This document shows, in pieces, positions 3,645 through 12,581 of a DNA stretch of 12,581 nt (the stretch's first letter is position 1; each line of letters begins with the position of its first letter). A program made the translations under genes and the position numbers. The DNA lies in assembly GCA_946478675.1 (NCBI GenBank), contig CAMLEF010000101.1, forward strand, positions 1-12,581, given 5' to 3'. Below the pieces are notes generated by a model, which made no database searches, was not told where the DNA came from, and saw only the letters and a program-made list of their open reading frames with translations. The stretch comes from an uncultured Flavobacteriales bacterium. GTDB lineage: Bacteria; Bacteroidota; Bacteroidia; Palsa-965.

Positions 3645-3667
3645 ATTCGGAGAAGAAATAAAAAAGC

Positions 3668-3708
3668 AACCGCGAAAGTTTTGGAAACCTTCGCGGTTTA
3701 TTTTTTTA
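3668..3708 (+). terminator. Intrinsic terminator after the DUF5723 operon
   Basis: AACCGCGAA (3668-3676) pairs with TTCGCGGTT (3690-3698); an inner GTTT/AAAC pairing extends the stem. It is followed by a T-rich run to 3708. It lies 24 bases after the stop of the zinc-motif protein. Confidence 0.85.
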
Positions 3709-3729
3709 ATCTACGCCGTAAATTGCCGC

Positions 3730-4071
3730 ATGATCGTTTCCGACAAGACCGGTTCCCCGCATTATACCTGGGGACAAAATTGTGACGGCTGGCGGTTGCT
3801 CGATTCGCCATCGCTTAGCGTGATCCACGAACGTATGCCGGCGGGTGCGCGTGAGCAGAAGCATTACCACGAAAAAGCGCAGCAGTTTTTCTTTGTGCTT
3901 TCCGGCGAAGCAAAATTTTATTTTGAAGAGGAAACGGTAACCGTGCGCGCGCAGCAGGGCTTGCACATTCCTGCGGGAACGCGGCATTTCATTGCGAATG
4001 AATCGGAAGAGGCGATTGAGTTTCTTGTGATCTCGGAGCCTTCTGCGAGAGGTGATCGTCGGGAAGTTTAG
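3730..4071 (+). CDS. Cupin domain-containing protein
   Basis: A 113-residue single-domain cupin, the usual length for small stand-alone cupins. Motif 1 is KHYHEKAQQFFFVLSGE (44-60), with His45 and His47; the position normally occupied by the metal-binding Glu is Gln (Gln52 by spacing to the Gly), as in a common small subfamily with 'QFF.VLSG'. Motif 2 is IPAGTRHFIAN (80-90), with His86. Metal binding through three His is therefore possible, but the ligand or reaction cannot be read. The start ATG 3730 follows the terminator of the upstream operon by about 20 bases, so the gene needs its own promoter; TAAATTG at 3719-3725, four bases before the ATG, is a weak candidate (-7 box lacking one T). 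Convergent with the aldehyde dehydrogenase. Confidence 0.88.
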   Translation: MIVSDKTGSPHYTWGQNCDGWRLLDSPSLSVIHERMPAGAREQKHYHEKAQQFFFVLSGEAKFYFEEETVTVRAQQGLHIPAGTRHFIANESEEAIEFLVISEPSARGDRREV

Positions 4072-4180
4072 CCGCTGATTGCGCAGATTTCCGCAGATTA
4101 TCTTTTGCCACGGACTACGCGGATTGCGCGGATTCTTTTTCTCTGCGATTTCTCTGCGCCCTTGCGCCTCTGCGGTTTTA
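4072..4180. repeat. Intergenic short-word repeat element between convergent genes
   Basis: The 113-base spacer between the cupin and aldehyde dehydrogenase stops consists almost only of quasi-repeats. Block A (4072-4100) is three 9-10-mers ending in GATT (CCGCTGATT, GCGCAGATTT, CCGCAGATTA). Block B (4108-4134) repeats CGGACTACGCGGATTGCGCGGATT-type words. Block C (4141-4175) holds CTCTGCG words in the opposite orientation. GCGCAGA (4081-4087) can pair with TCTGCGC (4153-4159), and CCGCAGA (4091-4097) with TCTGCGG (4169-4175). A T-rich run follows on the plus strand, so it may end transcription from the cupin side. Confidence 0.7.
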
Positions 4181-4184
4181 TTTT

Positions 4185-5597
4185 TTACTTCACGAGTATC
4201 CGCGCCTCCAGCATATCCATGATCGCGTACTTCACGCCTTCTCTTCCCTGCCCGGAATCTTTCACGCCGCCGTACGGCATGTGATCGACACGGAACGTCG
4301 GCACGTCATTAAGAATAATGCCGCCCGCCTCGATTTCACGGAACGCTTTATCCATCTCCTTCACATTATTCGTGAATACGCCCGCCTGCAAACCGAAACG
4401 CGTGTCGTTGATCATACGGATCGCATCTTCGAACGTATCGTAAGGCTCCACGATCACGACCGGCCCGAACACTTCTTCGCAATTTACTTTCATCGACGTG
4501 TTCGTGCCCGTGATCACCGTCGGCAAATAATACGAGCCTTCGCGCGTTCCGCCGCACAGCACCTTCGCGCCTGCCGCTTTCGCCTCATCCACCCACGCTT
4601 CTACCCGCTTCGCATTTTCTTCGTCGATCATCACGGACATATCCGTCTTCGGAAATTCGGGATTGCCGTTGCGCAGCTTTTGCACCAGCGCAAGAAATGT
4701 ATTCGTGAACGTTTCAAAAATGCTGCGCGCTATGAAAATGCGCTGCGCATGAATGCAGACCTGTCCCGAATACGCGAAGCCGCCGTTCAGGCAACGCATC
4801 GCCGCATCCTGCAGATCGGCGGAAGCGGTAACGATCACGCCTGCATTTCCGCCGAGCTCGAGCACTACTTTTTTCCTGCCGGCATCGCGCTTCATCTTCC
4901 ATCCCACTTCGGGAGAACCGGTGAAGCTCAGCAGCGCAAAACGATCGTCGGTAACGAGCTGGTTGCCGGCGGTGCGGTTCATCGGCAGAATCGAAACGGC
5001 GCCTTTCGGCAGATCCGTTTGATCGATGATCTTCGCCAATGCAAGCGTCGACAGCGGCGTGGAGGACGCGGGCTTAAGAAGGATCGGGCATCCTGCGGCA
5101 ATCGCCGGAGCGATCTTGTGTACGGCGAGGTTCATCGGGAAATTGAACGGCGCAATGCCTGCGACAATTCCCACCGGGAAATAACCGACGATGCCCTCTT
5201 TCTTTTCTCCGGCCGGTGTCCAGTCGAGCGAGAGGTATTCCTTCGGCAATCGTTTCGCTTCTTCCGCAGCAACAAGAAACGTTTGCGCCGCACGATCGAT
5301 CTCGCCGAGCGCGTAACGGATCGGCTTCCCGGATTCGTGCGAAAGCAGCAATGCCAGCGTTTCCCGTTGCGCAGCGAGCGCGTCGGAAATTTCACGGAGA
5401 ATGCTGAAGCGTTTATGCGAAGGCAATTCCGCCATTTCCCGCTTCACCGACTGCGCAGCTGCGATCGCGGCTTCGAGCTCCTGCGGACCCGCAAGAAACG
5501 TTTCCGCAAAAACTTCCCCGGTGTACGGATTGGTGACCGGCAACACCGAAGAAGTCGTCGCGAACCGGCCGCCGATATAAATGGAATACCGTTCCAT
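4185..5597 (-). CDS. NAD(P)-dependent aldehyde dehydrogenase family protein
   Basis: A 470-residue full-length aldehyde dehydrogenase oxidising an aldehyde to an acid (or acyl product) in the cytoplasm. Seen in order: IAPFNFPMNL with the oxyanion Asn152, ILLKPAS with the cofactor Lys175, FTGSPEVG (225-232), general base Glu247 in LELGGNAG, nucleophile Cys281 in SGQVCIHAQR, EEVFGP (374-379), and the C-terminal MPYGGVKDSGQGREG (440-454). The FNFPMNL and GQVCIHAQRI segments resemble the lactaldehyde / non-phosphorylating glyceraldehyde-3-phosphate / phosphonoformaldehyde branch rather than betaine aldehyde or retinal enzymes, but the substrate remains open. The ATG is 1 base beyond the stop of the upstream HMA gene, with no Shine-Dalgarno sequence, so translation is probably coupled. 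The gene is shadowed on the other strand by a long spurious frame. Confidence 0.95.
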   Translation of the reverse strand: MERYSIYIGGRFATTSSVLPVTNPYTGEVFAETFLAGPQELEAAIAAAQSVKREMAELPSHKRFSILREISDALAAQRETLALLLSHESGKPIRYALGEIDRAAQTFLVAAEEAKRLPKEYLSLDWTPAGEKKEGIVGYFPVGIVAGIAPFNFPMNLAVHKIAPAIAAGCPILLKPASSTPLSTLALAKIIDQTDLPKGAVSILPMNRTAGNQLVTDDRFALLSFTGSPEVGWKMKRDAGRKKVVLELGGNAGVIVTASADLQDAAMRCLNGGFAYSGQVCIHAQRIFIARSIFETFTNTFLALVQKLRNGNPEFPKTDMSVMIDEENAKRVEAWVDEAKAAGAKVLCGGTREGSYYLPTVITGTNTSMKVNCEEVFGPVVIVEPYDTFEDAIRMINDTRFGLQAGVFTNNVKEMDKAFREIEAGGIILNDVPTFRVDHMPYGGVKDSGQGREGVKYAIMDMLEARILVK

Positions 5598-5598
5598 G

Positions 5599-5814
5599 TT
5601 AAGCTGCTTCGTAAATGCCGGTGTCGTTCACCGCGTCTTTGATTTGCGCCGGCGTTACTTTGGAGTCGTCGAAGCTGACGGTAACGGTTCCGTTGTTTTT
5701 ATCGGCTTTCGCATCGATGATGCCGTCGAGTGTTTTGATCGCTTTATTGACTGACATTTCGCAGTGCCCGCAGGTCATACCGGAAACGTTGAAGGTTTGT
5801 GTCTGGATAGCCAT
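5599..5814 (-). CDS. Heavy-metal-associated (HMA) domain protein, CopZ-like copper chaperone
   Basis: A 71-residue single HMA domain of the normal ferredoxin-like size. The metal-binding motif GMTCGHC (12-18) puts the two Cys at 15 and 18. The rest fits the fold: a helix (EMSVNKAIKTLDGI), a strand (ADKNNGTVTVSFD) and the second helix (TPAQIKDAVNDTGIYEA). The family binds Cu(I) and hands it to P-type ATPases or regulators; other soft metals are possible. No copper ATPase, CsoR or CopY is visible here. The neighbour one base downstream is an aldehyde dehydrogenase, which is an unexpected partner. A full-consensus -7 box lies 22 bases upstream of the ATG. Confidence 0.92.
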   Translation of the reverse strand: MAIQTQTFNVSGMTCGHCEMSVNKAIKTLDGIIDAKADKNNGTVTVSFDDSKVTPAQIKDAVNDTGIYEAA

Positions 5815-5836
5815 GATGATTGGTTTTTAGCTCCTG

Positions 5837-5844
5837 CAAAGTTA
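5837..5844 (-). promoter_or_regulatory. Putative -7 box for the HMA-aldehyde dehydrogenase operon
   Basis: TAACTTTG on the minus strand matches TAnnTTTG fully. A TTG lies upstream at 5872-5870, with 25 bases between, slightly longer than the usual spacing. The box leaves a leader of about 20 bases before the ATG at 5814. Confidence 0.5.
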
Positions 5845-5893
5845 CGCAGTGCGCAGGTAAGAGAATGAACAATAAATTTCCCCGCCCCACCCC

Positions 5894-5950
5894 CTCGCAC
5901 CTCCGCACCTCCGCAACTTCGCAACTCCGCAACTCCGCACCGCGCAACTC
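5894..5950. repeat. Tandem 8-mer repeat upstream of the EamA gene
   Basis: Five consecutive 8-mers of form CTNCGCAM fill 5901-5940 in exact register (CTCCGCAC, CTCCGCAA, CTTCGCAA, CTCCGCAA, CTCCGCAC), preceded by CTCGCAC (5894-5900) and followed by CGCGCAACTC. No complementary arm is seen in the spacer, unlike the other intergenic elements. It lies between the divergent HMA and EamA promoters and ends 13 bases before the EamA -7 box. Confidence 0.8.
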
Positions 5951-5963
5951 ACTTCTCAATTCC

Positions 5964-5971
5964 TATCTTTG
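5964..5971 (+). promoter_or_regulatory. Putative -7 box for the EamA gene
   Basis: TATCTTTG fully matches TAnnTTTG. It ends three bases before the proposed GTG start at 5975, so the mRNA would be leaderless. An upstream TTG start at 5969 would lie inside this box and is therefore unlikely. No clear -33 TTG is seen. Confidence 0.5.
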
Positions 5972-5974
5972 CGC

Positions 5975-6859
5975 GTGCAAAACCGGCGCGTTCTCCACTG
6001 GATCATCTTCATCGCATTAGCCCTCACCTGGGGCAGCTCGTTCATCCTCATGAAACGCGGGATGGAAGCGTTCTCCAGCGACCAGGTAGCCGCGCTGCGC
6101 ATCTTCACCGCTTTTGTTTTTCTTTCCCCGCTCGCGTTCAAGCGCATCAACCGCGGACTGCTAAAAAATACGGCTGCCGTTGCGGGCATGGGCATCTTCG
6201 GCAATCTCATTCCTGCGTTTCTTTTTACGAAAGCGGAAACGATGATCAGCAGCGCGATGACGGGCATGCTGAATTCGCTGACACCGGTTTTTACACTGCT
6301 GATCGGGCTGCTGATCTTCCGGAATAAAGTGATGTGGCGGCAGGCGCTCGGCGTAATCATCGGCCTGGGCGGCGCGATCGGGTTGCTGGCGCTCGATGAG
6401 AAAGACGCTGCGGCTGTGATGCAAAATTCCGTTTTCATCGGTGGCGCGCTGGTCGTGCTCGCGACGTTCTTCTACGGATTATCTGTGAACATCATCCGCT
6501 CGAAGCTCGGCCACGTGAATGCCGTTACGGCAACTGTGTTCGCGATGTGCATCATCGGCCCGATCGCAGGAACGTATCTCTTCACCACCGACTTCGTGCA
6601 TCGCCTGCAGACGAACCCGCTCGCGCTGCACAGCCTCGGTTTCGTATCGATCCTCGCGGTCTTCGGCACTTCGCTGAGCGTAATCGTTTACAACATTCTC
6701 ATTCGCGAAGCCGGCGCGCTCTTCGCCGCATCCGTGACTTATCTCATGCCGGTCGTCGCCATGGGCTGGGGACTTTACGACGGCGAATCCGTCACCTGGA
6801 TGCACGCGGTTTTTATCCTCGTTATTCTCAGCGGCGTTTTCCTCGTTAATAAAAAATAG
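5975..6859 (+). CDS. EamA family (DMT superfamily) transporter
   Basis: A 294-residue integral membrane protein with about ten hydrophobic helices arranged as two EamA repeats (about residues 8-140 and 152-292), the normal length for the family. Helix 1 carries the typical ALTWGSSFILMKRG; LTPVFTLLIGLLIFRNKVMWRQALGVIIGLGGAIGLL closes the first repeat, and the second ends with LMPVVAMGWGLYDGESVTWMHAVFILVILSGVFLV. The family exports metabolites or amino acids; the substrate is not visible. Start choice: the first in-frame ATG is inside helix 1, so a non-ATG start must be used. GTG 5975 is preferred over TTG 5969, because the latter overlaps the -7 box. Confidence 0.92.
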   Translation: MQNRRVLHWIIFIALALTWGSSFILMKRGMEAFSSDQVAALRIFTAFVFLSPLAFKRINRGLLKNTAAVAGMGIFGNLIPAFLFTKAETMISSAMTGMLNSLTPVFTLLIGLLIFRNKVMWRQALGVIIGLGGAIGLLALDEKDAAAVMQNSVFIGGALVVLATFFYGLSVNIIRSKLGHVNAVTATVFAMCIIGPIAGTYLFTTDFVHRLQTNPLALHSLGFVSILAVFGTSLSVIVYNILIREAGALFAASVTYLMPVVAMGWGLYDGESVTWMHAVFILVILSGVFLVNKK

Positions 6860-6861
6860 TA

Positions 6862-6954
6862 GGGAGTTTGGTGTCGGGAGTTCGGAGTAACAGCATTGTT
6901 CAGAACTTTTAATTGCAGACGCTCCGAACTCCAGGCTTCCAACTCCGAACTCCC
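6862..6954. repeat. Nested inverted repeat between EamA and xseA
   Basis: Inner arms are GGAGTTCGGAG (6877-6887) and CTCCGAACTCC (6922-6932), a perfect 11-base complement. Outer arms are GGGAGTTTGG (6862-6871) and CCGAACTCCC (6945-6954), complementary with one G-T pair. The loop between the inner arms is 34 bases. The repeat occupies nearly the whole spacer and ends just before the xseA -7 box. A large hairpin in the EamA 3' end is the likely form. Confidence 0.8.
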
Positions 6955-6957
6955 CTC

Positions 6958-6965
6958 TATCTTTG
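6958..6965 (+). promoter_or_regulatory. Putative -7 box for xseA
   Basis: TATCTTTG fully matches TAnnTTTG and is followed by AATC and the ATG at 6970. A start of transcription a few bases after the box would make the mRNA begin at the AUG. No TTG -33 element is evident; that region is occupied by the right arm of the inverted repeat. Confidence 0.5.
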
Positions 6966-6969
6966 AATC

Positions 6970-8319
6970 ATGCAACTCCGCCTTTCGGAATTCTGCGCGA
7001 TGATCAGCGACACGCTGCAAACAACCTTTGCGGAACGTGCGTGGTGGGTGTTGGCGGAAATCAAGGAACGCAACGATAAAGGCGAGTATCTCTATTTCGA
7101 GCTCGTGGAAAAATCCGCGAACGGCAGCGATATCGTAGCGCGCATCAACGCGAGCGTGTGGCGGCGCGAGGCCGTGGCGGCGTTCCGGAATTTTGAAGAT
7201 GTCACCGGCAAACGTCCCGACAAAGGCATGCAGGTGCTGGTGAAAGCCGGCGTGAACTATCACCCGGTTTACGGACTTTCGCTGCAGCTGTTCGATATCG
7301 ACGCGCAGCACATGCTCGGACAGCTCGAGCTGCATCGCCGACGCACGATCGAAGCGCTTTCGAAAAAAGAAGACGTGCAGCTGATCGACGGCGTTTTTCA
7401 CACGAAGAATAAATCGAAACCGCTTCCCGCCGTCATCCAGCGGATCGCGATCATTACGTCGGCTTCTGCGGCGGGCTACCAGGATTTCATGCATACGCTG
7501 GAGCGGAACATTTTCGGTTACCGCTTTACATGCACGCCGTACTTCTCCATTTTGCAGGGAGAAAATGCTGCTGCAAAAATGAAAGAGCAGCTGATCAAAA
7601 TTCACGCCGACTGGAACAACGGCAACGGCAAAACGTTCGACGCAGTTGTTTTCATTCGTGGCGGCGGCGCGCAAAGTGACCTGCTGCCGTTCGATGATTT
7701 TCATCTTGCGTATGCGGTTTCGCGTTTCCCGATTCCCGTCATCACCGGCATCGGTCATTTGAAAGATGAAAGCATCGTCGACATGGTGGCGAACACGAGC
7801 ACGAAAACGCCAACACAGGCCGCCGAGCTCATCATCGATCACAACCGCGCGTTCGAAGAACAGATCGGCGATTTGCGACAATTGATTGTTCTGCGCACGA
7901 ATAATTTATTGACCGCGCAGCACCGTCGCCTCGACCACGCCGGCATGATCGTCACCAACGGAACGACGCAGCTCATTAACGCGACCGAAAACAAGCTGCA
8001 GCGGATCCGCGACCGCATCACTTCCGGCGCAGAGAAATCGATGCTCGCATCGGCACAAGCGCTCGGTGAAATGCAGCGCAATCTTTCTCCGCTGACGAAG
8101 CGTTTGATCGAACGGCAATCGCACCAGCTCGATCTCTTCACCGAACGCATCAAGCTGCTGCACCCGATCAACGTGCTGAAACGCGGTTACGCGATGATCC
8201 TGAAAAACGACCAGCCGGTTGTTTCCGCAAACGCAGCAGTCGCCGGCGATCAGCTGAAGATCGTCATGCACGACGGCAGCATTAACACAACAGTAAACGA
8301 CACGACGCTTAATCCCTGA
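6970..8319 (+). CDS. xseA: Exonuclease VII large subunit
   Basis: A 449-residue XseA. It degrades single-stranded DNA from both ends in complex with several copies of XseB, acting in repair and mutation avoidance in the cytoplasm. Residues 1-110 form the N-terminal OB-fold domain (LSEFCAMISDTLQ..., AWWVLAEIKE). The catalytic domain holds IAIITSASAAGYQDF (159-173), VVFIRGGGAQSDLLPFDD (226-243) and PVITGIGHLKDESIVDMVAN (256-275) with TKTPTQAAE. A long helical region (about 285-395) follows that would carry the small subunits, and the conserved HPINVLKRGYAMI (398-410) lies in the C-terminal segment. Length is normal. xseB begins five bases after the stop, so the two are co-transcribed. Confidence 0.97.
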   Translation: MQLRLSEFCAMISDTLQTTFAERAWWVLAEIKERNDKGEYLYFELVEKSANGSDIVARINASVWRREAVAAFRNFEDVTGKRPDKGMQVLVKAGVNYHPVYGLSLQLFDIDAQHMLGQLELHRRRTIEALSKKEDVQLIDGVFHTKNKSKPLPAVIQRIAIITSASAAGYQDFMHTLERNIFGYRFTCTPYFSILQGENAAAKMKEQLIKIHADWNNGNGKTFDAVVFIRGGGAQSDLLPFDDFHLAYAVSRFPIPVITGIGHLKDESIVDMVANTSTKTPTQAAELIIDHNRAFEEQIGDLRQLIVLRTNNLLTAQHRRLDHAGMIVTNGTTQLINATENKLQRIRDRITSGAEKSMLASAQALGEMQRNLSPLTKRLIERQSHQLDLFTERIKLLHPINVLKRGYAMILKNDQPVVSANAAVAGDQLKIVMHDGSINTTVNDTTLNP

Positions 8320-8324
8320 ACAAT

Positions 8325-8528
8325 ATGAGCAACGACATTTCTTACACCGACGCCTTGAATGAGCTGAACACCATCTCCCGCGCCATCGAGAACGAAAGCA
8401 TCCCGATCGACGAGCTTGCGGCGAAAGTGAAACGCGCTTCGGAGCTGATCGAACTCTGCCGGAAGAAGCTGCGCTCGACGGAAGAAGAAGTGAAAAAGAT
8501 CATCGGCGAAATGGGAGAAAAGCAGTAG
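8325..8528 (+). CDS. xseB: Exonuclease VII small subunit
   Basis: A 67-residue XseB, typical in size. The pattern YTDALNELNTISRAIE, then IPIDELAAKVKRASELIELCRKKLRSTEEEV, is the family's two-helix hairpin, which binds the long helices of XseA. It starts five bases after the xseA stop, without a Shine-Dalgarno sequence, suggesting coupled translation and a common mRNA from the promoter upstream of xseA. A repeat-rich spacer with a T-run follows and may end this transcript. Confidence 0.96.
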   Translation: MSNDISYTDALNELNTISRAIENESIPIDELAAKVKRASELIELCRKKLRSTEEEVKKIIGEMGEKQ

Positions 8529-8540
8529 GCCATTCGCAGC

Positions 8541-8641
8541 CTGCAGTTGGCAATCTTCAGCAGGCAGTGTGCAATAGGCAGTGTGCAACCTTCCCAAAAA
8601 CTGCAAACTACCGACTGCGTACTGCCGACGGCATGCTTTTT
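8541..8641. repeat. Short-word repeat element after xseB
   Basis: The left part carries CTGCAGTTGGCAA and two copies of AGGCAGTGTGCAA (8562-8574 and 8576-8588, 14-base period). The right part (8601-8636) carries the reverse-complementary words CTGCAAACTACCGACTGCGTACTGCCGAC in broken form. GCAGTTGG (8543-8550) can pair with CCGACTGC (8611-8618) with one G-T pair. GCATGC and a run of six T follow (8631-8642), so the element may serve as a terminator of xseAB. Confidence 0.7.
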
Positions 8642-8645
8642 TAAC

Positions 8646-8653
8646 TACCTTTG
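8646..8653 (+). promoter_or_regulatory. Putative -7 box for the DEAD-box helicase gene
   Basis: TACCTTTG fully matches TAnnTTTG directly after the T-run of the preceding element. No good -33 TTG is seen. If used, it gives a leader of about 135 bases before ATG 8792. Confidence 0.4.
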
Positions 8654-8657
8654 TTCC

Positions 8658-8791
8658 GATTGACATCCCTTCTTTCTACCGGCACTCGTTCGGTAAACTC
8701 TCAAGATCATTGCACAGGCGTTGACTTCAAAAGGGATACGGTGAAGAACCGGTGATCCAGCGTGTTTGCATCTCATTTTACTGTTTCAATA
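8658..8791 (+). other. Possible long structured 5' leader of the helicase mRNA
   Basis: About 130 bases without an ORF or word repeats. Two small hairpins can be drawn by eye: TACCG (8677-8681) with CGGTA (8691-8695), and CGGT (8739-8742) with ACCG (8748-8751), enclosed by GGAT (8734-8737) with ATCC (8755-8758). DEAD-box helicase genes in other bacteria often have long regulated leaders; that it is so here is inference only. Confidence 0.3.
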
Positions 8792-10366
8792 ATGTCGTTT
8801 GACAAACTGAACCTCATTGCGCCTATCCTCACGGCGTTAAAAGAAGAGGGCTATTCCACTCCCACCCCCATCCAGCAACAGGCCATTCCGATCGTACTCG
8901 AAGGACGCGACCTGCTCGGCTGTGCGCAAACCGGCACCGGAAAAACGGCGGCATTCGCTATTCCGATCCTGCAACTGATGGCCACGCAACCGCGGGAGGG
9001 CAAAAAAAATATCCGTGCGCTCATTCTTACACCGACGCGCGAACTGGCGATCCAGATCGAAGAAAGCTTTAACGCGTATGGCCGTCACGCCGGTCTGAAA
9101 AGCGTAGTGGTCTTCGGCGGTGTCGGACAAAAGCCGCAAACGGATGCGCTGCGTCACGGCGTGGACATTCTCGTTGCGACGCCGGGCCGTTTGCTCGATC
9201 TCATGGACCAGCGTTTCATCAATCTTTCGCACATCGAATTCTTCGTGCTGGATGAAGCCGACCGCATGCTCGACATGGGCTTCGTGCACGACGTGAAAAA
9301 AGTGATCGCGAAACTTCCGCATAAACGCCAGTCGCTGTTTTTCTCTGCGACGATGCCGCCGGAAATCGTGAAGCTTTCTTCAACGATCCTGACAAATCCC
9401 GCGAAGGTGGAAGTCACGCCGGTTTCATCGACGGCAGAAACCGTACAACAAGTCGTTTATTTCGTTGACAAGCCGGACAAGCGCAAGCTGCTCGTTCACC
9501 TACTGAAGAACGACGATTCGATTGTAACAACGCTCGTCTTCACACGCACGAAACACGGCGCCGACCGCGTGGCCCGCGAACTTACCCGCGCCGGCATCAA
9601 AGCCGAAGCGATCCATGGCGACAAATCGCAGAACTCCCGCCAGCGCGCGCTCAGCAATTTCAAAGAACAGAAGACGCGTGTGCTCGTGGCCACCGATATC
9701 GCCGCGCGCGGCATCGACGTGGATGATCTTGCACACGTGATCAACTACGATATGCCGAACGTTCCGGAAACCTACGTGCACCGCATCGGCCGCACGGGTC
9801 GCGCAGGAGCCAGCGGCCTCGCCATCTCTTTCTGCGATAACGAAGAACGCGAATACCTCCGCGACATCTCGAAGCTGATCGGCAAAAAAATTCCGTCGGT
9901 GGACGAACATCCGTATCTCGCCGGGGAACCGCGCGAAGAAAAGATCGTCGTCAATCAAAACGGCGAAGCGCGCCCGAAGCAGAAAAGCAGTTTCCGCAAG
10001 AAGCAAGGTAATCGCAACGCGCAGGCACCGCAGGCTGAAAACTCCGGCAACCGCAATTCCCGCGGACGCCAGCCGCGCAGGGAGCAATCCGCGCAGCCGC
10101 AGGGAGAGAACTCCGGGCGCAACTCCGGCGGACGCCAACCGCGCAAAGAGCAATCCGCACAACCGCAAGGTGAAAATTCCGGCAACCGCAATTCACGCAA
10201 TCGCAACCGGAACCGCAAGCGTCGTGGCAATCGCGGAACGAGCGAAGAGAGCTTCAACAAAGCCTACAGCAACGATCACCAGCAGCAACACAGCGCACCG
10301 GCTCCCGCAGCACAGGAAGCGCCGAAGAAAAAAGGCTGGTTCAACTGGAGCTGGAAAAGCCGGTAA
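8792..10366 (+). CDS. DEAD-box ATP-dependent RNA helicase, RhlE-like
   Basis: A 524-residue cytoplasmic RNA helicase. The frame is open to GTG 8762, but ATG 8792 gives the usual MSFDKLNL start. Motifs: Q motif (Phe3, PTPIQ ending Gln28), AQTGTGKT (45-52), PTREL (81-85), GG (109-110), TPGR (130-133), DEAD (154-157), SAT (185-187), TLVFTRT (247-253), ARGID (305-309) and HRIGRTGRA (330-338). All core residues are present, so it should be active in ATP-driven RNA unwinding (ribosome assembly, RNA decay or cold adaptation are the usual roles). From about 380 the tail is disordered, Arg/Asn/Gln-rich and strongly basic, with 22-23-residue repeats (416-460) and an [13 protein letters not shown] stretch, probably binding RNA. 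The last residues, [13 protein letters not shown], are aromatic and basic. Monocistronic: promoter and long leader upstream, terminator downstream. Confidence 0.95.
10037..10171 (+). repeat. In-frame tandem repeat coding the helicase tail
   Basis: Two units code for ENSG(N)RNS(R/G)GRQPR(R/K)EQSAQPQG: 10037-10105 (23 residues) and 10106-10171 (22 residues). A third [10 protein letters not shown] start follows at 10172. The codons differ between units at several silent sites, so the duplication is not very recent or is being kept at protein level. Confidence 0.85.
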
Positions 10367-10387
10367 CCGTTAGCCGATAACACTTTC

Positions 10388-10424
10388 AAAAACGCCTGGC
10401 CTTTCGTGGTCGGGCGTTTTCTTT
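10388..10424 (+). terminator. Intrinsic terminator after the helicase gene
   Basis: AAAACGCC (10389-10396) pairs with GGCGTTTT (10413-10420), with partly paired TGGCC and GGTCG between them, followed by CTTTCT. It starts 22 bases after the helicase stop. Confidence 0.8.
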
Positions 10425-10448
10425 CTCCGGAAAATCAGACGAAGATCA

Positions 10449-10479
10449 TTTGCCTGTCGGCGGAGCTTTGTTATTTTTA
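10449..10479 (+). promoter_or_regulatory. Promoter for the type IX cargo gene
   Basis: TTTG (10449-10452), then exactly 19 bases, then TATTTTTA (10472-10479). This is the Bacteroidota TTTG-N19-TAnnTTTG arrangement with one mismatch in the last base. The ATG follows 17 bases later. It is the best two-part promoter in the window. Confidence 0.6.
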
Positions 10480-10496
10480 ACGACAACCCACCTCCC

Positions 10497-11312
10497 ATGA
10501 AAAAACCTCTACTCCTTCTTGCTTTCGTACTCTCCGCAGGAACCGCCGCTTTCGCGCAGGCCAACTGCAACGCGGGATATGAAACAACCGTCTTCCCGAA
10601 TTCCATGAACATTCCGGCCAACACGCTCTTCGCGATCCGTGTGACAGCCGCAAGCGCAGGAACACTCACCGACCTCAGCATGTATAATTCGGGGAATTCG
10701 GCATTGAACATCAAGCTGGCGGTGTATGCCGACAATGCAGGCGTACCGGGCAATCTCGTCGCAAGCACAGGGCCCATTGCGCTCACGATGACTGCCGGCG
10801 TCATTACTACGCCCGTAACGCCCGTTGCAGTTGCCGCAGGTGATTATTATCTCGCCGGTGTGATTGATGCATCCGGCAGTCCTATCCCTGTCGACAACAC
10901 TACGTCGCTCACGCTGTACGGCACGTCGATGTCGTTTGCTTCATCGTTCCCGGCCAGCGGAACGGGCTTCGCGACGATTCCCGGCAACCCGGTCAACATC
11001 TGGATGAACATTACCTGTTCTACTACGGGCCTTCCGGAAACCGCCGGGAATCCCACGTTCATCATGAGCAGCTATCCGTCTCCGGTGCGTGAGAATTATT
11101 TCATGGATTTTCATTCTGCTTTTGCGCAGCAGGTGACGGCGGAAGTTTACGATTGCCGCGGAGCGATTGTACTGAGCCAGGCGATTTCGGTTGCCGCCGG
11201 TGAAAGCTCTTCTTCCCTTTCGATGACGAACCTCGCTCCCGGAATTTATTTTCTGCGCATGCACGACGCGTCGGGAAATATGCTCGTGAACCGGAAGCTG
11301 ATTAAGGAATAA
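10497..11312 (+). CDS. Secreted protein with type IX secretion C-terminal sorting domain
   Basis: A 271-residue exported protein. Residues 1-20 form a Sec signal peptide (KKPLLLLAFVLSAGTAAFA, cleavage before Gln21). Residues about 28-176 are a beta-rich domain with NSALNIKLAVYADNAGVPGNLVASTG and AAGDYYLAGVIDASG; I do not recognise a named family, but the pattern suggests a jelly-roll or beta-sandwich as found in surface proteins. Cys24 and Cys174 frame this domain and might form a disulfide. Residues about 190-271 fit the Por/type A sorting domain (SSYPSPVRENYFMDF..., LAPGIYFLRMHDASGNMLVNRKLIKE), which in this phylum directs transport across the outer membrane and is then removed. No enzymatic motif is seen. 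It has its own promoter and stands alone. Confidence 0.87.
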   Translation: MKKPLLLLAFVLSAGTAAFAQANCNAGYETTVFPNSMNIPANTLFAIRVTAASAGTLTDLSMYNSGNSALNIKLAVYADNAGVPGNLVASTGPIALTMTAGVITTPVTPVAVAAGDYYLAGVIDASGSPIPVDNTTSLTLYGTSMSFASSFPASGTGFATIPGNPVNIWMNITCSTTGLPETAGNPTFIMSSYPSPVRENYFMDFHSAFAQQVTAEVYDCRGAIVLSQAISVAAGESSSSLSMTNLAPGIYFLRMHDASGNMLVNRKLIKE

Positions 11313-11347
11313 TTGGGCCAACATTTTTGCTGAAAAGTCCCGAAGGC

Positions 11348-11506
11348 ATTGCAACGGATTTTGCCACCAAGGCACGAAGGCACTAAGAAAAGCACAAGGG
11401 AAAAATTGTTGCGTCCTATATTATTTCGTAACAAATCGCAAGAAAGAAAACGAGCAGAAGGATGAGCGACACTTCCTGTCTTTGTGCCTTCGTGGCAAAA
11501 TGCAAT
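11348..11506. repeat. Long imperfect inverted repeat between convergent genes
   Basis: TTTTGCCACCAAGGCAC (11359-11375) is complementary to GTGCCTTCGTGGCAAAA (11484-11500) at 16 of 17 positions. Outside it ATTGCA (11348-11353) pairs with TGCAAT (11501-11506) with a five-base bulge. The left arm continues as CCAAGGCACGAAGGCACTAAG, a partly tandem GAAGGCAC word. The 108 bases between the arms hold nothing I can identify. The element fills most of the 205-base spacer between the secreted protein and the SRAP gene. Confidence 0.85.
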
Positions 11507-11517
11507 CGAATATTTTA

Positions 11518-12267
11518 TTACAGGGAAGAAAACAAGTCGAATGCATTTCCATTCACATCCGGCAATTCTGCATAATGGAAAGGCGCTTTCACATCCGGAA
11601 CATCATCGGGCTCGTTGCGTGAAGTGATGCGTTTCGAAATCGTCCAGTAATCGAGCGCTTCTGCCGGCAAGGGTTGCATCTGCTGCTGAATTTGCGCCTG
11701 CGAAAGATCCGGCGCGATCCAATCATACATCCTGTTCTTCGGCAGCATGAACGGCATTCGCTTTTTCTTGTTGTGAATGACTTCCATGACGGCATTCGCA
11801 GGCGTAGTGATGATCGAGCAGGTGTTAATGATCTCGCCCGTCGCTTTGTTCACCCAGTTTTCATACAAGCCGCCGAGCGCAAACGCATCCTGGTCTTTCA
11901 GGCGGATGAAGTAGGGATAATTTTTCTTCCTGTACTCGCGCCACTCGAAGAAACCGTCGACAAACACGAGGCAACGTTTTTTGCTGATGGAGCGGAACGA
12001 AGGTTTTTCGAACGCCGTTTCACTCTTCGCATTCAGCGTCACCGCCTGCAGCTCGCGCGCCTGCGATTCGTCTTTGCACCATTCCGGGATGAGCCCCCAG
12101 GTAAACGCCTGCACCCGCTTCGGCTGCTCCGATGTCAGCACCGGCAGCTGCACATTTGAAAATCCCGACACATGATGATGCTCTTCGCTCCAGTCTTCCA
12201 CAACTGCATCATCGCCAAGCAGGGCTTTGATTTTTGCAGCAACAGGAGAAGAGACGTGGTAGCACAT
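11518..12267 (-). CDS. SRAP (YedK/HMCES-type) abasic-site DNA-protein crosslinking protein
   Basis: A 249-residue SOS-response-associated peptidase family protein. In this family the Met is removed and Cys2 forms a stable thiazolidine bond with abasic sites in single-stranded DNA, shielding them. Key residues are present: Cys2 (MCYH), Asn79 in LNAKSE, Glu108 in VDGFFEW, and His165 in VIHNKKKRMPFML, plus WGLIPEW (57-63). The required Cys at position 2 fixes the start at 12267. The length is near the usual 220-250. The conserved IHxRMP motif has extra lysines (HNKKKRMP), as in other Bacteroidota members I recall. It is convergent with the secreted protein and is single; no LexA-type box could be identified with confidence. 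Confidence 0.95.
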   Translation of the reverse strand: MCYHVSSPVAAKIKALLGDDAVVEDWSEEHHHVSGFSNVQLPVLTSEQPKRVQAFTWGLIPEWCKDESQARELQAVTLNAKSETAFEKPSFRSISKKRCLVFVDGFFEWREYRKKNYPYFIRLKDQDAFALGGLYENWVNKATGEIINTCSIITTPANAVMEVIHNKKKRMPFMLPKNRMYDWIAPDLSQAQIQQQMQPLPAEALDYWTISKRITSRNEPDDVPDVKAPFHYAELPDVNGNAFDLFSSL

Positions 12268-12286
12268 GAGGTGAGAGATTGCAGGA

Positions 12287-12294
12287 TAAAGATA
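12287..12294 (-). promoter_or_regulatory. Putative -7 box for the SRAP gene
   Basis: TATCTTTA on the minus strand (one mismatch to TAnnTTTG) lies 19 bases before the ATG. No TTG is seen at the expected -33 distance; that region belongs to the first right-edge repeat. The box overlaps one half of the GATAATG/CATTATC inverted repeat. Confidence 0.4.
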
Positions 12295-12311
12295 ATGTGG
12301 CTCGCATTATC
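12291..12311. promoter_or_regulatory. Palindrome overlapping the SRAP promoter
   Basis: GATAATG (12291-12297), seven bases, CATTATC (12305-12311): a perfect 7-base inverted repeat. Its left half overlaps the -7 box. It could be an operator or the foot of a hairpin; no known operator is recognised. Confidence 0.35.
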
Positions 12312-12405
12312 ATCTGACCAGGTTCGGGGCAGGGTCGGAGCGTTAAGAAATGTACAGTAGACTTTTTAGCGGAGGAGCCGGTCTGTGCGCTGGGCTCGCG
12401 GAGCG
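12310..12405. repeat. Right-edge GC-rich repeat, copy 1
   Basis: The first 41 bases (12310-12350, starting TCATCTGACCAGGTTCGGGG) match copy 2 at 40 positions, and the last about 46 bases (12360-12405, AGCGGAGGAGCCGG ... GGGCTCGCGGAGCG) match copy 2 with three substitutions together and one T fewer. The middle is short (about ten bases) and has no hairpin, unlike copy 2. GAGCC and GGCTC within the right part can pair. Confidence 0.9.
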
Positions 12406-12463
12406 AGTATCATTCCGCAGTGCATTAAAAGAAAAAGCGCCTCCTATCCTCCTACCAACAATT

Positions 12464-12581
12464 TCATCTGACCAGGTTCGGGGCAGGGCCGGAGCGTTAA
12501 GAAAAAGTCCGGTCCGCAGGACTCCTTCGGAGTGGACTTTTTTAGCGGAGGAGCCGGGGAGTGCGCTGGGCTCGCGGAGCG
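12464..12581. repeat. Right-edge GC-rich repeat, copy 2 (reaches window edge)
   Basis: Same ends as copy 1, 154 bases further on, with a 58-base spacer (12406-12463) that contains the words CTCCTATC and CTCCTACC. The middle is longer (about 30 bases) and forms a hairpin. The unit may continue past the window edge. Confidence 0.9.
12503..12543 (+). terminator. Terminator-like hairpin inside repeat copy 2
   Basis: AAAAAGTCC pairs with GGACTTTTTT around two small inner hairpins, one being ACTCC-TTC-GGAGT (12521-12533). It is followed by six T. It is nearly symmetric (A-run before, T-run after), so it could act on both strands. Confidence 0.5.

Follow-up and report, generated by a model that had tools for sequence, protein, structure and literature searches.

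Word-armed elements in intergenic spacers of an uncultured Flavobacteriales bacterium: probable gene-less relatives of S23 and GxxExxY elements

We analyzed a DNA stretch of 12,581 nucleotides (nt) from an uncultured Flavobacteriales bacterium (contig CAMLEF010000101.1 of assembly GCA_946478675.1), hereafter the window, in which several intergenic spacers contain runs of degenerate short words. On balance, we think it probable that word-armed elements, as we call them, are represented in five of the six word-bearing spacers, by gene-less members in four (elements 1, 3, 4, and 5) and by a lone arm in the fifth (element 2). They look like selfish DNA of a kind that is widespread but has been little described. 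In its full-length form such an element consists of inverted arms, made of one degenerate word of 7–9 nt, placed around one small gene that encodes either an S23 or a GxxExxY protein. The words differ between elements and agree between the two arms of an element. In related genomes we observed the association of genes with arms, dispersed gene-less copies that share their words, gain, loss, and swapping of elements, joint change of both arms, and slippage of word units.

Results

Word repeats in the spacers of the window

The window contains genes for cupin, ALDH, HMA, EamA, XseA, XseB, a DEAD helicase, a protein with a secretion-sorting tail (here called cargo), and SRAP. The relatives of xseA carry the names Bacteroidetes or Bacteroidia, and hence the window is a piece of a Bacteroidota-type chromosome. 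All of its elements lie between protein genes and none in 23S rRNA. A first-pass annotation made from the sequence had proposed that six of the seven long spacers hold repeats of short words, that most of these have a reverse-complementary second arm, and that all share a common design.

Direct repeats were scored as pairs of 8-mers with at most one mismatch against 100 dinucleotide shuffles of each spacer, and again by local self-alignment against 40 shuffles. The observed 8-mer value was reached by none of the 100 shuffles in the cupin/ALDH, HMA/EamA, and EamA/xseA spacers and at the right edge of the window, by 4 in the xseB/helicase spacer, and by 6 in the cargo/SRAP spacer. Self-alignment was reached by 0/40 shuffles in five of these six spacers and by 3/40 in cargo/SRAP. 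Of the six spacers, five thus had clear word repeats and cargo/SRAP marginal ones, and the helicase/cargo spacer, which the annotation had set apart as lacking words, did lack them (73/100 shuffles reached its 8-mer value and 40/40 its self-alignment).

Second arms were assayed by inverted local alignment against 40 shuffles and by RNA folding z-scores of the elements. The alignment score was equaled or exceeded by 1/40 shuffles in EamA/xseA, 2/40 in cargo/SRAP, and 0/40 at the right edge, where the fold z-scores were −6.2, −6.15, and −4.6 (the right-edge hairpin), respectively. The HMA/EamA spacer gave 0/40, yet its word run amounts to a single arm that shows no folding (z +0.28). Inverted alignment was no better than shuffles in cupin/ALDH (30/40) and xseB/helicase (18/40); the z-scores of these elements, −1.2 and −0.8, were also near those of shuffles, and the entire cupin/ALDH spacer folded better than 97/100 shuffles. 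Complementarity of arms was therefore clear in three spacers and not in the other three, and the common design held for five spacers and not for the right edge, which has a repeat of a different kind.

Arms around S23 and GxxExxY genes in relatives

We tested two gene families as suspected neighbors of such repeats: PF13366 (GxxExxY) and PF05635 (S23/four helix bundle), the protein of 23S rRNA intervening sequences. Among 12 relatives PF13366 was found in 8 genomes and PF05635 in 10; in wider Bacteroidota samples, S23 genes were present in 157 of 198 genomes and GxxExxY genes in 151 of 296. The arm score of a locus was obtained by aligning the left flank of the gene to the reverse complement of its right flank, and mixed pairs were formed from flanks of different loci. 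Over all Bacteroidota loci, scores of at least 15 were found at 36/52 GxxExxY and 32/55 S23 genes, and at none of 30 cold-shock genes. For the 12 relatives, with one GxxExxY and five S23 loci left out as cut short, the counts were 17/22 and 17/25, and the own score exceeded the 95% point of the mixed pairs at 17/22 and 18/25. In further genomes of the phylum, each family being represented by its 30 best-scoring matches, own pairs reached 15 at 19/30 GxxExxY, 15/30 S23, and 0/30 cold-shock loci. The mixed pairs of these genomes, which include homologous flanks, did so in 84/870, 58/870, and 46/870 cases, respectively.

The arms were mostly runs of short words, the wording of which agreed within a locus and differed between loci. 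GxxExxY words had the form CRCNRAK, in which one position accepts any of the four bases. At least two such words were found in 51/72 GxxExxY arms and in 0/72 shuffled arms, the motif having been derived from such arms and then counted. S23 words were mostly heptamers (e.g., GTATTGA, GGCAGTC, and CGATTTG). Among unrelated GxxExxY loci, the similarity of the proteins tracked that of the words (rho 0.20, 0/500 permutations). A group of S23 loci (L260, L261, L265, L266, and L267) has a conserved GTAAGGAATTgctttgaattgGTCTTAC-like leader, seemingly an RNA hairpin, between arm and gene.

Elements of the window

By direct matching to gene-locus arms (with a cut of 14), elements 1 and 5 appear to be gene-less relatives of GxxExxY elements. 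Element 1, in the cupin/ALDH spacer, begins in the cupin stop codon with a left-type arm on the forward strand (4071–4099) composed of CGCTGATT/CGCAGATT, which are GxxExxY-type CRCNRAK words. This arm scored 24.5 against GxxExxY locus L029, with best scores of 10.0 for S23 and 10.5 for cold-shock loci. A second left-type arm on the same strand (4107–4135; CACGGACT/CGCGGATT) had a best GxxExxY match of 14.5 (L073), and the right-type arm (4140–4178, reverse strand; CTCTGCG, the reverse complement of CGCAGAG) matched GxxExxY locus L021 at 25.5 and S23 loci at 12.0 at best. Element 5, in the cargo/SRAP spacer, consists of a left arm of 30 nt (11358–11387, forward strand; ATTTTGCCACCAAGGCACGAAGGCACTAAG), 83% complementary to the right arm with which it pairs (11472–11501, reverse strand; CTTCCTGTCTTTGTGCCTTCGTGGCAAAAT). 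Both arms matched GxxExxY locus L026 at 19.5; the best S23 match of the element was 14.0.

Elements 3 and 4 are probably S23-type, a placement made by heptamer design. The left arm of element 3 (6858–6887, forward strand; GGAGTTCGGAG) overlaps the EamA stop codon, and its right arm (6922–6951, reverse strand; CTCCGAACTCC...CTCCGAACT) is 77% complementary to the left. The inverted arms of reiterated words are clear in elements 3 and 5, which fold well; the arms lie 34 nt apart in element 3 and 84 nt apart in element 5, and no gene lies between the arms of the window. Element 4, in the xseB/helicase spacer, has a left arm (8543–8589, forward strand; GGCAGTGTGCAA/GCAGTTGGCAAT) with word repeats above those of shuffles and a right arm (8600–8634, reverse strand; ACTGCAAACTACCGACTGCGTACTGCC) followed by a T-run. 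Reverse-complement words could be seen by eye in elements 1 and 4, with pairing little or no better than that of shuffles. A word related to that of element 4, GGCAGTN, occurs in both arms of S23 locus L298, as ten units before the gene and several after it. Element 2 is a lone C-rich, right-type arm (5888–5950, reverse strand; CTCCGCAA) with seven copies of period 8, and by design it could be placed with either S23 or GxxExxY elements.

The right-edge repeat (12305–12581) is a different, REP-like dispersed repeat outside the word-armed elements. It has two copies of a unit of ~155–175 nt (12305–12350/12459–12504 and 12363–12405/12539–12581) and a compact hairpin at 12502–12542, and pieces of it were found at two contig ends of relative G012 with 92% and 88% identity. 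One of these pieces lies ~60 nt from a tRNA-Phe gene (L336:1–196; gene at 123–196) and contains GGTTCGGGGC, which is also present at the end of that gene. Within the helicase gene, the part encoding the C-terminal tail has a 66-nt tandem repeat with 83% matches (10052–10182).

Gene-less copies dispersed in related genomes

A 400-kb sample of relative G012 contained word runs (score of at least 12) in 30/207 spacers, compared with 1/207 shuffled spacers and 3/317 coding pieces. Of the 30 spacers, two form the arms of S23 element L060, which lies within the same 400 kb as another gene-bearing element (L025); the other 28 do not. Recurrence of words was then scored in three genomes with 38 of their 41 S23 and GxxExxY loci as input, 30 of which had arms scoring at least 14 and were used. 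The words of gene-bearing arms occurred in spacers elsewhere in their own genome at 0.063 per kb and in the other two genomes at 0.014 per kb, an excess matched by only 1 of 20,000 label shuffles. L212 is an example, its words recurring in 10 spacers of its genome (G001) and in none of the other genomes; L039 is another, with words that recurred in 8 spacers of G012. Some GxxExxY words, e.g., CGCAGATT, were present in all three genomes.

In the genome samples, 22 word families picked from the outputs of the preceding word scans gave 36 arm pairs and 69 single arms. Three of the pairs were gene-bearing as judged by their gaps (422, 519, and 574 nt); the gaps of the others were 2–148 nt. One orientation was kept in seven of the eight families having at least two pairs, with the AATTTTG family as the exception, and loops were shared among three copies of the TTTACCG family (51, 40, and 37 of 55 aligned positions). 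In G386, a 2.8-Mb genome with 378 matches to GGCAGTNGGCARTNGGCAG, one vocabulary has expanded to an extreme degree. Nested inside the loop of one word-armed element (L168:10223–10390) is a further hairpin (CACACTGAGCGGAGTCGAAGTGTG).

Gain, loss, and swapping at orthologous junctions

A scan with an xseA alignment gave four loci, one of which (L001) has ALDH, HMA, EamA, xseA, and xseB in common with the window, followed by two small genes and the helicase gene. The EamA/xseA junction of L001 also bears a hairpin with two arms, located at the stop codon that element 3 overlaps in the window and worded differently. Own arms scored 13 (window) and 20.5 (L001), and mixed pairs 8.5 and 7. Inspection by eye showed no element at this junction in L002 and words of yet another kind in the HMA/EamA spacer of L001. 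The two small genes of L001 (L001:4559–5106), by sight a RelE-type toxin–antitoxin pair, occupy the place of element 4.

At one junction in eight species of a genus we found an S23 element in two, gene-less word runs in five, and a bare 36-nt gap in one. The two S23 genes are 66% identical and one has an in-frame stop codon. In three of the five (G175, G050, and G066) the word run is short, and in G175 its halves do not pair (score 5.5). Four species were also compared over a syntenic region, where 39 of the 49 spacers could be matched to an orthologous spacer in one or more of the other species. There, one species had a 5-nt gap in place of a 77–85-nt element and also lacked a 60-nt element; a junction at which one species has an S23 element held short word runs in others; at two further junctions one species had different words in both arms; and one array differed by an 8-nt unit between orthologs, a trace of slippage. 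Over three gene-less or mixed sites the own arms averaged 14.3 and mixed pairs, which include near-identical sisters, 10.5. A junction in what looks by gene names to be a phenylacetate operon is occupied at the same place by two S23 lineages, 56–63% identical, that have different words. Their arms scored 14.5–20 within an element and 6–11 between lineages, and thus the words go with the element rather than the site. Both arms change together at orthologous junctions, and in many of these examples the arms adjoin stop and start codons.

S23 elements beyond Bacteroidota

Ten S23 genes of cyanobacterial plasmids were hand-picked from 29 records. Arms scoring at least 15 were found at eight of the ten and in 8/132 mixed pairs, which include two GxxExxY loci; these two loci were without arms. 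The S23 words (AACAGGG and GGGTGTA, for example) belong to the heptamer class already described in cyanobacteria, with the difference that the plasmid S23 genes sit between such arms. Two plasmid S23 genes (L303 and L311) lie between annotated cas genes, the pairs being cas6/cas4 and cas10/cmr3.

The published Coxiella 23S rRNA intervening sequence has a 28-bp stem whose loop contains an S23 gene. GACAGAT heptamers, two or three in number depending on the strain, precede this gene, and RNase III has a site at the first of them (PMC4990558). The Coxiella sequence has the same build as the word-armed elements, within rRNA.

Discussion

Evidence against the proposed link to S23 and GxxExxY elements

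Several results weigh against our interpretation. In the window, elements 1 and 4 fold no better than shuffles. Element 2 had a best gene-bearing match of 14.5, to one GxxExxY locus, and the best matches of elements 3 and 4 were under the cut, at 13.0 to a GxxExxY locus (11.0 for S23) and 13.5 to S23 locus L055, respectively. The right arm of element 5 also matched one cold-shock flank (L137) at 17.0. In the relatives, 16/52 GxxExxY and 23/55 S23 loci, about a third or more, lacked clear arms, and the repeat scored at L017 is not a word arm. By the stricter measure in the further genomes, the own score exceeded the 95% point of mixed pairs at 14/30 GxxExxY, only 8/30 S23, and 0/30 cold-shock loci, and the sets of 30 include orthologs and hence are not independent. 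Protein similarity of S23 does not track word similarity (rho 0.04, 79/500 permutations). Few copies lie near the gene: S23 was found within 1.5 kb of 2/30 GGCAGTN loci, compared with 4/330 random 3-kb windows, and near one of five TTCGGAGTT loci, ~1 kb away. Finally, S23 has no transposase domain, and neither excision nor target duplication is in evidence for the elements.

Alternative explanations

A selected RNA role, in which transcribed hairpins shape mRNA processing or 3' ends for the host and the S23 and GxxExxY genes are passengers, seems unlikely to us. Such a role would account for arms that adjoin stop and start codons between co-oriented genes and for elements that stay at a junction though their words change, and the stems of rRNA intervening sequences are indeed described as cut by RNase III (PMC4990558). 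T-rich DNA follows elements 1 and 4 only, and because of it a local terminator effect is possible at these two. However, word spacers were not enriched between convergent genes (tandem/convergent/divergent 50/10/10, compared with 165/42/62 for word-free spacers; p = 0.23), and element 2 lies between the divergent HMA and EamA genes. Terminator-like hairpins were found instead in word-free spacers of the window, before the cupin gene (3648–3718 in spacer 3645–3729) and in the helicase/cargo spacer (10389–10421, forward strand, in 10367–10496; fold z −5.6). Moreover, a sister species lacks the element at two of the compared junctions, and genome-specific vocabularies serve no evident purpose in a purely structural function. 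A shared part in 3'-end formation, which the first-pass annotation had offered, therefore finds no support.

Slightly less likely still is local replication as the sole process, with slippage making the words, template switching at hairpins keeping the arms complementary, and neither a mobile element nor a protein being involved. The 8-nt unit difference between orthologs and the coordinated change of both arms speak for it, as does the variation of Xanthomonas heptamer repeats in length and sequence between species at the same genes (PMC4692102). Slippage, one of the processes proposed for the window, is thus a real side process, but alone it leaves unexplained why one vocabulary occurs at many unrelated loci of a genome and more often there than in relatives. 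Nor does it explain the three copies of one family that share loops, the presence of arms at two gene families and not at the cold-shock control, or the presence or absence of whole elements at orthologous junctions. The other proposal of the annotation, a mobile palindrome process, agrees with what relatives show: the same words at unrelated loci, copies gained and lost between orthologous junctions, and full-length elements with a gene.

It is very improbable that these are ordinary REP/REPIN elements moved by the RAYT (Y1) transposase: they are dispersed intergenic palindromes and Y1_Tnp genes occur in 9 of the 12 relatives, but inverted flanks were found at only 7 of 18 usable Y1_Tnp loci (6 of 24 were left out as cut by contig ends) and by eye these were compact palindromes rather than word runs. 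Membership of the REPIN/RAYT system was rejected since the partners are S23 and GxxExxY rather than Y1 and there is no fixed palindrome, the right-edge repeat alone being REP-like. Two of the 18 Y1 loci (L339 and L359) are flanked on one side by strongly periodic DNA, with scores of 94 and 56. Membership of the 23S rRNA intervening sequences was likewise rejected for the window elements, which have no S23 gene inside the stem and lie between protein genes.

Relation to known systems and a possible mechanism

As usually described, REP and REPIN elements are short intergenic palindromes dispersed in a genome that also has a rarer gene-bearing partner encoding RAYT, and the word-armed elements resemble them in this. 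They differ in having words of variable length and wording, a vocabulary that changes from element to element and no fixed palindrome, and in a partner gene that encodes S23 or a predicted PD-(D/E)XK nuclease rather than a Y1 (HUH) protein. Miniature inverted-repeat transposable elements (MITEs) likewise are gene-less inverted-repeat copies that occur beside rarer gene-bearing relatives. Unlike MITEs, the word-armed elements vary in arm length and wording and have loops that are shared only in part, with no target duplication in evidence.

The 23S rRNA intervening sequences of Coxiella and Leptospira, as far as described in PMC4990558, are alike in having one S23 gene inside a terminal inverted-repeat stem and, in Coxiella, heptamer repeats of variable copy number just before that gene. 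Those known are in 23S rRNA, whereas the present elements lie between protein genes and have dispersed gene-less copies sharing their words. Heptanucleotide repeats are known from cyanobacteria, Xanthomonas (GGGAATC), and Beggiatoaceae (TAACTGA), and share with the present arms an intergenic location, degeneracy, and high copy number, those of Xanthomonas often being inverted pairs (PMC4692102, PMC4679880). Their potential functional role is called still to be elucidated (PMC4692102) and they are considered possibly horizontally transmitted, with no mechanism evident (PMC4679880). The terms S23 and "four helix" are absent from PMC4692102, and the portions of the two papers that were consulted name no S23 or GxxExxY partner. 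Heptamer repeats, S23 intervening sequences, and REP and MITE systems are each known already, but in the open-access literature, as far as it was accessible, we found no paper that connects S23 or GxxExxY genes with dispersed word repeats.

We suggest that the S23 or GxxExxY protein recognizes its own words and would copy or move elements that bear them, in cis and in trans, gene-less elements included, much as RAYT acts on REPs although with different proteins. The GxxExxY protein is a predicted PD-(D/E)XK nuclease, nearest to SSO0001 (which we take to be Cas4) and other nucleases; the predicted fold and the D...ExK residues are present, with D91, E101, and K103 invariant. When transcribed, the hairpin may allow operons, spacers, or rRNA to tolerate the insert, and intergenic forms may be cut by RNase III, as published for the rRNA form (PMC4990558). 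An S23 relative, 2gsc, is described as a pentameric ring in the same source (PMC4990558).

More tentatively, and with somewhat less than even confidence, we propose that orphan heptamer-type repeats (the short tandemly repeated repetitive sequences of cyanobacteria, GGGAATC of Xanthomonas, TAACTGA of Beggiatoaceae, and the Bacteroidota words) are all arms of one superfamily. Its members would be mobilized in cis and in trans by proteins of the S23/Avd-like or GxxExxY nuclease kind, which would recognize a reiterated word rather than a fixed terminal sequence, so that vocabularies could switch while the element keeps its place, and rRNA intervening sequences would be members that landed in rRNA.

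The link between S23 or GxxExxY genes and heptamer repeats gives both a testable meaning in terms of a gene, its arms, gene-less copies, and a vocabulary bound to the element. Word spacers make up about one in seven of those in the G012 sample (30/207), a good part of its intergenic DNA, and such repeats can mislead the annotation of terminators, small RNAs, and small open reading frames.

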